Of a DNA stretch of 64,000 bases, positions 42,128 to 44,324 are shown one piece after another (the first letter of the stretch is position 1; each line of letters starts with the position of its first letter). The notes beneath the pieces are model-generated. The model did no database searches. It was given only the letters and a program-made list of their open reading frames with translations, and was not told the origin of the DNA. The DNA lies in contig NZ_AQQR01000005.1 in the NCBI RefSeq assembly GCF_002210095.1, positions 248,001-312,000 on the forward strand, given 5' to 3'. This stretch comes from Marinibacterium profundimaris (GTDB taxonomy: Bacteria > Pseudomonadota > Alphaproteobacteria > Rhodobacterales > Rhodobacteraceae). A program made the position numbers and the translations under genes.

Positions 42128-42970
42128 ATGTCCGCATGGAAGCCACTGACGATACCTGCGGTGCTGGGACTGATGGCCGCACCGGCCTGGGCGGATGCAC
42201 AGCTGGAGCGGGGGGAATACCTGGTGAACGGGATCATGGGCTGCGGCAATTGCCACACGCCGATGGGGCCGGAGGGGCCGGTGCCGGGAATGGAACTGGC
42301 CGGACGGCTGGTGGAGGACAACGACGCCTTCACCGCGATCGCGCCGAACATCACGCCGGCGGGCCGCGTCGCCGACTGGAGCGATGCCGAGCTGGCCCGC
42401 GCGATCCGCGAGGGCATCCGGCCCGACGGCTCTCTGATCGGACCGCCGATGCCCTATACCTTCTACCGTGGCCTGAGCGACAGCGACCTTGCCGCCGTCG
42501 TCGCCTTCCTGCGCACCGTGCCGGCGGTGGAGAACGATCCCGGGACCTCGACCTACAACATCCCGCTGCCCCCGGCCTATGGCCCGCCGGTCGAAAGCGT
42601 GCCGGACATCGTGCCGGCGGTGTCGGTCGAATACGGCGAATACCTGGCCGGGCCGCTGGCGCATTGCATGGAATGCCATACCCCGATGGGGCCGCAGGGG
42701 CCCATGGTGGGCACCGACCTGGGCCGCGGCGGGTTCGAGTTCCACGGGCCCTGGGGCGTGTCCGTGGCGTCGAACCTGACCAGCCACGCGGACGGGCTGG
42801 CGGGCTATTCGGATGACGAGATCAGGACGATGATCGTCGAGGGCGTGCGGCCCGACGGCTCGCCGATGTCTCCTCCGATGCCCTATGGCTATCTCGCGCG
42901 GATGAGCGAGGACGATCTTTCGGCGATCCTGCTCTACTTGCGCCAGCTGCCGCCGCTGCCGGATCGGTGA
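42128..42970 (+). CDS. secreted diheme cytochrome c
   Basis: A 280-residue protein with a signal peptide (ending APAWADA) and two cytochrome c domains with heme sites CGNCH and CMECH, each followed by HTPMGP and by a Met-containing segment (GPPMPYTFYRGL; SPPMPYGYLARM) giving the axial ligand. The two halves are clearly related, so the gene looks like an internal duplication. It likely carries electrons for a periplasmic dehydrogenase, but none is adjacent. An AT-rich stretch at 42030-42100 upstream is the probable promoter; GGGAGGA precedes the ATG. Confidence 0.9.
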   Translation: MSAWKPLTIPAVLGLMAAPAWADAQLERGEYLVNGIMGCGNCHTPMGPEGPVPGMELAGRLVEDNDAFTAIAPNITPAGRVADWSDAELARAIREGIRPDGSLIGPPMPYTFYRGLSDSDLAAVVAFLRTVPAVENDPGTSTYNIPLPPAYGPPVESVPDIVPAVSVEYGEYLAGPLAHCMECHTPMGPQGPMVGTDLGRGGFEFHGPWGVSVASNLTSHADGLAGYSDDEIRTMIVEGVRPDGSPMSPPMPYGYLARMSEDDLSAILLYLRQLPPLPDR

Positions 42971-43061
42971 CGTGGCGGGCGTTGCGCGGTGGCCCCGTCC
43001 CGGCCAACGTCCCACCCACCCACCCCGTCGGCCGGGACGGGGCCATGGCGGGCCGTGGTGC

Positions 43062-43090
43062 TTGACGCATCGCCGCAAGGCGCCTAACGG
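43062..43090 (+). promoter_or_regulatory. candidate promoter of the trpS leader
   Basis: TTGACG at 43062-43067 is separated by 17 bases from a weak -10 (TAACGG, 43085-43090). Seven bases further stands the leader-peptide ATG, so transcription would start at or next to that A and the leader would be translated without a ribosome-binding site. Confidence 0.6.
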
Positions 43091-43097
43091 TTGCGTC

Positions 43098-43145
43098 ATG
43101 CAACGCGTGACCCTCCTTGCCTGCCGCTGGTGGCAGCCCTTCTGA
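43098..43145 (+). CDS. Trp leader peptide for attenuation of trpS
   Basis: A 15-codon frame, MQRVTLLACRWWQPF then TGA, with tandem Trp codons at 43128-43133. Ribosome stalling at these codons when charged tRNA-Trp is scarce would cover the 5-bp stem gccct/agggc (43136-43140 with 43147-43151) and leave gggcggcc (43148-43155) free to pair with ggccgcc (43179-43185), which breaks the terminator. No Shine-Dalgarno is present; the ATG appears to be at the transcript 5' end, as reported for rhizobial trpL. Confidence 0.8.
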   Translation: MQRVTLLACRWWQPF

Positions 43146-43177
43146 CAGGGCGGCCAGGCGTTTCATATCGTTTCCAC

Positions 43178-43204
43178 AGGCCGCCGCATCCGGGCGGCCT
43201 TTTT
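43178..43204 (+). terminator. attenuator terminator before trpS
   Basis: An 8-bp stem (aggccgcc with ggcggcct, 7-base loop) followed directly by a run of five T. Its 5' arm can instead pair with the copy of gggcggcc at 43148-43155, giving the antiterminator. It lies 67 bases before the trpS start, so it can only act as a regulated terminator. Confidence 0.85.
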
Positions 43205-43271
43205 CATGCATCTCCATCAGGTACAGCCGGTCCGGTGTGGCGGTCTCCTTCCCCAAGAAAGAGACCCATAG

Positions 43272-44324
43272 ATGACCCAACTGACCGAAGACCGCCCTCT
43301 GAAGGCCCAGGAACAGCCCGCCTCCGCGCGCCCGGTCGTCCTGACCGGCGACCGCACCACCGGGCCGCTGCATATCGGCCATTTCGCCGGCTCGCTGAAG
43401 AACCGCATCCGCATGCAGGAGGACCACGACCAGTTCCTGCTGCTGGCCGACACCCAGGCGCTGACCGACAATGCGCAGGATCCGGGCAAGGTGCGGCGCA
43501 ACGTGGTGGAGGTGGCTCTGGATTACCTGGCCGTGGGCATAGACCCGGGGCGCAGCACGATCTGCCTGCAATCGCACCTGCCGGCGCTGGCCGAGCTGTC
43601 GATGCTGTACCTCAACTTCGTCACCGTCGCCCGGCTGGAGCGCAACCCGACGATCAAGGACGAGATCCGCGCGCGCGGCTTCGGGCGGGACATTCCGGCG
43701 GGGTTCCTGTGCTACCCCGCCGCGCAGGCCGCCGACATCACCGGCTTTCGCGCCACCGTCGTCCCGGTGGGCGAGGACCAGGCGCCGCTGATCGAGCAGA
43801 CCAACGAGATCGTGCGCCGCATCAACGCCACCGCCGGGCGCGCCGTGCTGCCCGAGGCGTACGCGGTGATCCCCGAAGCCGGGCGCCTGCCGGGCGTGGA
43901 CGGCCGCGCGAAGATGTCGAAATCGGGGGGCAACGCGATCGCGCTTTCGGCCTCGCCCGACCAGATCCGCGCCGCCGTGCGCGCCATGTACACCGATCCG
44001 GGCCACCTGCGGGCCGAGGACCCGGGGCGGGTCGAGGGCAACGTGGTCTTCACCTATCTCGACGCCTTCGACGAGGACCGCGCGGCGCTGGAGGAGTTGA
44101 AGGCGCAGTACCGAAGGGGCGGGCTGGGTGACGGCAAGCTGAAGGCGCGGCTGGAGGAGATCCTGCAGGAGCTGATCGCCCCGATCCGCAGGCGCCGGGC
44201 GGAATTCGCGACGGATCCGGCGCATGTGATCGACATCATCCGCCAGGGCACCGACCGGGCAAGGGCGATCACCGAGGCGACGCGGCGCGAGGTGGTCGAG
44301 GCGCTGGGCCTGTTCACGTTGTGA
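43272..44324 (+). CDS. trpS: tryptophanyl-tRNA synthetase, auxiliary (TrpRS-II-like)
   Basis: A 350-residue class I synthetase charging tRNA-Trp. HIGH-type motif GPLHIGHFAGS and KMSKS-type motif AKMSKSGGN are intact. The nucleotide-site stretch is LTGDRTTGPLHIGH where housekeeping TrpRS usually have SGIQPSG-like sequence; the TGDR form matches the auxiliary class (Deinococcus TrpRS II, indolmycin-resistant Streptomyces enzyme). A second, housekeeping trpS is therefore expected elsewhere. The gene follows a complete-looking Trp attenuator, so it should be induced when Trp-tRNA is low. A GC-rich inverted repeat separates it from convergent truA. Confidence 0.93.
   Translation: MTQLTEDRPLKAQEQPASARPVVLTGDRTTGPLHIGHFAGSLKNRIRMQEDHDQFLLLADTQALTDNAQDPGKVRRNVVEVALDYLAVGIDPGRSTICLQSHLPALAELSMLYLNFVTVARLERNPTIKDEIRARGFGRDIPAGFLCYPAAQAADITGFRATVVPVGEDQAPLIEQTNEIVRRINATAGRAVLPEAYAVIPEAGRLPGVDGRAKMSKSGGNAIALSASPDQIRAAVRAMYTDPGHLRAEDPGRVEGNVVFTYLDAFDEDRAALEELKAQYRRGGLGDGKLKARLEEILQELIAPIRRRRAEFATDPAHVIDIIRQGTDRARAITEATRREVVEALGLFTL

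Follow-up and report, generated by a model that had tools for sequence, protein, structure and literature searches.

What controls the second tryptophanyl-tRNA synthetase gene of Marinibacterium profundimaris? The gene, trpS2, lies in a 64,000-nucleotide stretch of contig NZ_AQQR01000005.1, called the window here, and a leader separates it from a probable c-type cytochrome gene (42128-42970) that was named from its CxxCH motifs and matched by no family model. The original prediction read this leader as a complete-looking ribosome-mediated attenuator that responds to Trp-tRNA shortage or TrpRS inhibitors and acts on an auxiliary synthetase.

The auxiliary synthetase gene and its leader

The trpS2 gene (43272..44324, forward strand as for all features below) encodes an auxiliary tryptophan--tRNA ligase of 350 aa that scored above the trpS cut-off of its family model. 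Three tRNA-synt_1b family proteins are encoded in the genome, namely tyrS, the primary trpS and trpS2, and the solved structures nearest to the trpS2 product are 1yi8 and 2a4m (394 and 392 bits), the second of which is named tryptophanyl-tRNA synthetase II. We take both to be Deinococcus TrpRS II. The separate primary trpS and the nearest structures uphold the auxiliary identity originally proposed for this gene. The trpS2 protein carries a Gln (ADTQALT) where the primary enzyme of the same genome has a His (VDLHAIT), a position that, judged by motif, is presumably His43 of the B. stearothermophilus enzyme. A passage of PMC4899734 describes indolmycin resistance upon replacement of this His43 by Asn. 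The Gln is suggestive only of indolmycin insensitivity; it fits an inducible, inhibitor-tolerant spare enzyme, and a predicted role in starvation relief would look the same. For TrpRS II, a role with nitric oxide synthase appears in an excerpt of PMC9437257.

The promoter-like pair, the tryptophan-rich reading frame, the 1:2 stem, the pairing of regions 2 and 3, and the terminator were all found exact to the base at the positions first proposed. A -35-like TTGACG (43062..43067), read on the sequence, is followed after 17 nt by a weak -10-like TAACGG (43085..43090) and after a further 7 nt by the ATG at 43098. This ATG opens the predicted leaderless leader ORF MQRVTLLACRWWQPF (43098..43145; 15 codons, stop TGA at 43143-43145), in which tandem Trp codons, TGG TGG (43128..43133), are the putative sensor, as judged by the sequence and its conservation. 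Region 1, GCCCT (43136..43140), pairs with AGGGC (43147-43151) in region 2, AGGGCGGCC (43147..43155), which can partner either region 1 or region 3. Its portion GGGCGGCC (43148-43155) is identical to part of the 3' arm of the terminator and can pair with GGCCGCC (43179-43185). Region 3, AGGCCGCC (43178..43185), serves both as the 5' arm of the terminator and as the 3' arm of the antiterminator, and region 4, GGCGGCCT, the 3' arm of the terminator, runs into TTTT and the T tract (43193..43204). The terminator (43178-43200) has 8 pairs, a 7-nt loop and a run of five T (43200-43204) that begins inside the last pair; besides folding and conservation, a consensus scan also recovered it, where shuffles give a mean of 0.1.

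An Rfam search brought no family to its gathering score, and those listed were of other kinds; the 8 matches listed at E of 10 or below included no T-box. The cytochrome-like gene is followed at 42990-43045 by GGCCCCGTCCCGGCC, a long inverted repeat rich in GC; the repeat has no T tract, and its Rfam match is a microRNA, far under the gathering score.

The promoter was examined in 72 loci, left after the repeats L006, L031, L033, L034, L037 and L043 had been removed from 78. A consensus promoter scan did not list TTGACG-N17-TAACGG, the -10 of which is poor; it gave CTGACA-N18-TATCGT at 43142-43171, from which transcription would begin 3' of the leader. This second site is not conserved, by eye, in the alignment of the 39 near relatives (A1). 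A TTG starts 34-37 nt ahead of the leader ATG, mostly at 35 or 36 nt, in 39/39 near and 31/33 distant relatives, and the TA of the -10 hexamer is the majority in the near ones. This spacing favors the TTGACG site over that at 43142-43171 as the candidate promoter. From the 17-nt spacer and the 7 nt to the ATG, we infer that the first transcribed base would be the A of the leader AUG at 43098 or a neighbor of it. An SD-like site was seen ahead of the leader in 2/39 near and 0/33 distant relatives (2/72). The fixed -35 spacing, together with the near absence of SD-like sites, supports a leader that is predicted to be leaderless.

Trp codons and alternative stems in relatives

Relatives of trpS2 were gathered by two protein searches, one through 394 genomes from the family of the window (14 matches at 1e-60) and one through named genome contigs (best 80 of 559 candidates kept). 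A leader was scored when a tandem pair of Trp codons occurred in an ORF of 10-17 codons lying 60-260 nt ahead of the trpS match. Such a leader was present in 77 of the 92 trpS2 loci with enough upstream sequence, a count that retains repeat loci and in which some loci of both searches are the same contig, against 0/92 on the reverse strand. Control tiles of 200 nt gave 4/2063 and 1/2063 on the two strands (5/4126). Two loci with too little upstream sequence (L035, L036) enter no leader count and stand as "none" in the protein tree. The leader peptide outside the Trp pair differs between clades. The Trp codons proposed as the sensor are thus kept in relatives, and as a pattern in aligned loci this is far beyond chance.

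The 15 loci without a qualifying leader are L017, where the gene is partial, ten Cupriavidus loci, L057, where the Trp pair is present in a frame longer than that scored, L082, which has TGG TGC instead, L088 and L090. In all ten Cupriavidus loci (L054, L055, L059, L062, L063, L072, L073, L078, L080 and L093), an open frame 279-374 codons long stops 33-114 nt ahead of the match, and the sister rows of this group, L068 and L069, retain the leader; it was perhaps lost there by operon capture. At the Vineibacter locus (L088), GGAGCGGCACG and TTGCCGCCGTGATC, which resemble regions 2 and 3, are found within the 150 nt ahead of trpS2 without a Trp-pair leader, perhaps as a decayed leader.

The idea that all trpS genes are regulated in this way was unsupported: an ORF of 8-30 codons with the Trp pair was found within 320 nt of none of the 30 primary trpS genes of the class inspected (out of 98 matches), and the covariance model described below had no match near these 30. 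By eye, no such leader precedes the primary trpS of M. profundimaris itself. Likewise, regulation of its trpE by such a leader was rejected by eye, as the sole PF04715 gene found is a trpE directly 3' of another gene and without a leader.

The terminator helix was paired in 98.7% of the cells of A1, with four pairs changed on both sides, a result that 0/500 shuffles reached; slid by +3, it still paired 84.6% of cells because its GC-rich arms are repetitive. For the antiterminator, 91.6% of cells were paired and sliding lowered this to 34-67%; it showed a single double change, no more than shuffles give. The 1:2 stem as drawn from the window was paired in 69.7% of 195 cells and, slid by +1, in 79.6% of 157, since its register differs between subclades; its double-change pairs numbered 2, below the shuffle mean of 3.1. 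We then compared duplex energies with those obtained when the arms were dealt out between species (20000 permutations, L057 additionally left out). For all loci, the observed energy was reached by 0/20000 permutations for 1:2, 43/20000 for 2:3 and 0/20000 for 3:4. The corresponding numbers were 0, 2659 and 2 of 20000 in the near clade alone and 51, 663 and 37 in the distant clade alone. Covariation of 2:3 in the near clade is not significant because both arms hardly vary. As far as these alignments go, the putative terminator (3:4) and the 1:2 stem covary, and 2:3 is conserved and nearly invariant. The covariation anticipated for the alternative stems was therefore recovered for 1:2 and 3:4, with a conserved, weakly covarying antiterminator, and the mutually exclusive antiterminator and protector (1:2) stems are both kept in relatives.

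Could the arrangement be a coincidence, the terminator of another unit next to a random reading frame with two Trp codons? GC-rich DNA gives many hairpins, and the folding energy of the whole leader alone is unremarkable (z -1.66). However, the codons, stems and promoter spacing are conserved in relatives and the leader recurs in 77/92 loci, which makes coincidence extremely improbable. Another possibility is that the leader acts on translation or on Rho-dependent termination, its alternative stems exposing or hiding a site near the start of trpS2. TTTT follows the hairpin in only 11/32 distant relatives and, since the T tract is so often absent there, termination in these organisms may not be plainly intrinsic, as this explanation would have it. 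It is nevertheless unlikely for the window, where a T tract comes after the hairpin, as in 37/39 near relatives, and the hairpin ends ~70 nt ahead of the trpS2 ATG.

A predicted switch and the proposed role of the start codon

The conserved Trp codons, terminator, 1:2 stem, antiterminator and promoter spacing all support the attenuation reading of the original prediction. We assign a probability of about 0.88 to the reading that this auxiliary tryptophanyl-tRNA synthetase gene is under ribosome-mediated transcription attenuation through a leaderless leader peptide. Transcription would start at or beside the leader AUG. With charged tRNA-Trp plentiful, a ribosome would reach the stop codon and cover region 2, the terminator (43178-43200) would form, and the transcript would end near 43204; the RNA from 43156 on, which a ribosome at the stop codon leaves free, folds as the terminator. 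With charged tRNA-Trp scarce, the ribosome would stall on TGG TGG and cover region 1, region 2 would pair with region 3 and trpS2 would be transcribed; the RNA from 43144 on, left free by a ribosome at the Trp codons, folds as the antiterminator (-18.3) while region 4 is unmade. The physiological inducer would be tryptophan shortage or an inhibitor of the primary enzyme of the indolmycin kind.

If no ribosome starts, the 5' end with its AUG would be free to join 43158-43166; region 2 would be sequestered by region 1 and the terminator would form, so that the default state is probably off. The ribosome-free complete leader folds into this AUG stem, the 1:2 stem and the terminator (-45.1), and the part up to 43168 into the AUG and 1:2 stems (-27.4). 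However, the equilibrium fold of 43098-43190, before region 4 is made, is the antiterminator form (-28.9), so a default off state needs the early stems to persist until region 4 or to rearrange then. Compared as single helices, the terminator (-17.7) is stronger than the antiterminator (-14.8); like that of other attenuators, the on state must therefore also depend on kinetics.

In the most stable fold of the complete leader, 43098-43106, the 5' arm of the AUG stem, which includes the leader start codon and contains one mismatch, is joined to the 3' arm GCGTTTCAT (43158-43166). Both folding and covariation point to this stem. In the 72 loci (39 distinct 5' ends), the energy of pairing between the first 14 leader nt and the stretch after the stop codon averaged -9.40 kcal/mol; partners dealt out between species gave -7.00 (sd 0.34), and 0/20000 deals reached the observed mean. 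As a control, leader nt 10-23 showed no preference for their own partner in the same dealing test. The columns of the stem gave a covariation score of 0.222 against 0.134 (0/500 shuffles) and were paired in 61.2% of cells, against 28-43% when slid; a further alignment, A3, was made without L008 and L009 (37/39). The stem is poorly kept, at about -4 to -7 kcal/mol, in a subclade with leaders like MENTTLIAMTWWLAS. A simple count of AUG:CAT pairings had given a modest excess, reached by 8/5000 permutations with 36 distinct 5' ends and exceeded in some of 2000 permutations over all 72 loci, and was replaced by the bulge-tolerant energy test. Because the AUG stem is incompatible with the antiterminator in a nested fold, it was taken as part of the off state. 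We infer that it would restrict the leaderless leader to the first ribosome. This pairing role of the leader AUG is an addition to what had originally been proposed.

Spread of the element and relation to known attenuators

A covariance model (R1) built from 37 leaders found one strong site in the genome of M. profundimaris (2.8e-24), the next being partial at 0.012 (150 of 6273 first-look candidates scored). In the family sample, R1 matched 13/14 trpS2 genomes at E <1e-10, the one missed having a partial gene, and 0/380 others. Eleven of these 13 leaders were in the training set (one via a named copy of the same contig), and the two outside it (G215 and G193) scored 6.0e-29 and 9.0e-21. Weaker matches, at E up to 0.001 and many of them to the terminator only, were seen in 51 other family genomes, in a scan that scored 10 of thousands of first-look candidates per genome and can miss weak sites. 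Among 46 more distant loci (E up to 0.1), R1 matched 28/33 with a Trp-pair leader and 0/13 without. The weak matches at L119 (G007) and L123 (G333) have leader-like ORFs, MNRIASIRFYWLRSP and MTDRIRIAAPYFTAPH, and terminators.

The tie to trpS2 bears on the idea that the locus is mainly a gene for a stable trans-acting sRNA and a small peptide, like rnTrpL/peTrpL of Sinorhizobium meliloti, with attenuation secondary. The predicted terminated product, ~107 nt, would have AUG at its 5' end, like rnTrpL in a section of PMC7298713, and the folded RNA would be closed by the AUG stem. Against this idea, which we consider quite improbable, the element is found in 13/14 trpS2 genomes and 0/380 others at E <1e-10, and the leader peptide outside the Trp pair varies between clades.

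In the class sample, R1 found three further trpS2 leaders (L136-L138), leaders ahead of trpE-type genes (L139, L141, L142 and L144, with targets assigned by scan, and L143, judged by its start), one ahead of trpB (L148), and further weaker matches. The matches to trpE-type and trpB leaders place the predicted trpS2 leader with the known alphaproteobacterial leaderless Trp attenuators, set before another gene.

Two further leaders were met in the searches. At L140 (G602, 1465-1608), a leaderless-looking leader, MTEMMHITAVYFARLP, with a terminator and with TTGACA 36 nt ahead of its ATG, precedes the second of two tyrS genes (to 2936), and may be a Tyr/Phe counterpart serving an auxiliary TyrRS. 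The idea that auxiliary tyrS genes form a second general case was dropped: such a leader was found in 1/44 tyrS sources (the primary gene of G602 counted twice), and the searches gave no other relative above 61% identity. At L124 (G006, 1501-1771), the leader MKLNAITPAMTWWLPL is followed by a 27-residue trpS2 match and then by an IS66 transposase gene (1887 onward), so that the leader seems to outlast its gene.

None of four neighbor proteins of the window was found near trpS2 in the 80 named loci (fetched flanks up to 3 kb); the putative switch moves with trpS2 while the tested neighbors change. In a protein tree of 86 rows, the window, other Rhodobacterales and four Bradyrhizobium or allied rows form a clade of 24 (98/94), 21 of which have the leader, with L035 and L036 lacking upstream sequence and L090 having none. 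Leader presence requires 5 changes over the tree, whose root is unreliable owing to the long row of the primary TrpRS.

A trpS2 relative at 1e-90 occurs in 71/72,556 plasmid records. Of six plasmid copies inspected, five had a Trp-pair leader at the right place and an R1 match (Roseibium, Methylocystis, Variovorax, Photobacterium and an E. coli IncFIB plasmid), and that of Rhizobium leguminosarum had no such leader. The E. coli copy (L263, NZ_CP090457.1) has the leader MNRNVVISHLRRWWLPA and lies near an IS26 transposase; GGATAA is followed there by AAAG and then ATG, nearly leaderless if GGATAA is the -10. By megablast, close relatives of this gene occur in 2/5426 E. coli genomes, both on plasmids. 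That the element moves with its gene also goes beyond the original prediction. We tentatively propose, while leaning somewhat against it, that the start codon is a moving part, the AUG pairing with the post-stop element once this is made so that only the first ribosome would read the Trp codons and the default would be off, and that this self-contained switch and its auxiliary TrpRS move among Alpha-, Beta- and Gammaproteobacteria, also on plasmids, as a ready inducible answer to TrpRS inhibition.

How does this leader compare with known systems? Attenuation of this kind is already known. S. coelicolor trpRS1 is reportedly attenuated, and the S. lividans trpS downstream of TrpL2 is, we assume, the auxiliary one. 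In the literature, searched in part, no comparative report of a proteobacterial trpS attenuator was found, nor the proteobacterial trpS2 family, the AUG stem or the mobility, and a prior report is possible; the passages with trpS or tryptophan terms in PMC2965389, PMC4833913 and PMC1273637 held no trpS attenuator. With the rhizobial leaderless trpL of trpE(G), as outlined for S. meliloti rnTrpL in sections of PMC7298713, the leader shares consecutive Trp codons and a terminator and antiterminator; the RNA 5' end of rnTrpL lies at the leader AUG, where that of our element is predicted to lie. Unlike trpL, its target is an auxiliary synthetase gene instead of trpE(G), and the trpE of the same genome has no leader. 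Ribosome profiling in Caulobacter crescentus, as given in part of PMC4117421, revealed a putative small leader CDS on the trpS mRNA, which is likened to ours by description only, as a small ORF ahead of an alphaproteobacterial trpS. By protein, TrpRS II (1yi8, 2a4m) is the nearest solved relative. The element opens three questions to direct test: whether auxiliary TrpRS genes outside antibiotic producers are induced for tolerance of inhibitors or in starvation, by what means a leaderless leader could be restricted to one ribosome, and whether regulation is transferred together with the gene.

The closest logic is that of the attenuators of auxiliary trpS genes in Streptomyces, which, in the portions of the reports available, share the target type and a leaderless leader, the latter predicted in our case. 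An attenuator was predicted for S. avermitilis trpS2 (excerpt of PMC1262725), and TrpL2 of S. lividans, MMTRTCTQLWRAA, ahead of trpS, is leaderless by RNA-seq (excerpt of PMC8079986). TrpL2 has one Trp codon and, as described there, no U-rich stretch, whereas the element analyzed here has tandem Trp codons, a U tract, the AUG stem and proteobacterial hosts. Proteobacteria would thus gain a counterpart of the Streptomyces system, a spare synthetase kept off until charged tRNA is exhausted, and one in which the alternative stems are conserved and the distribution is mobile.
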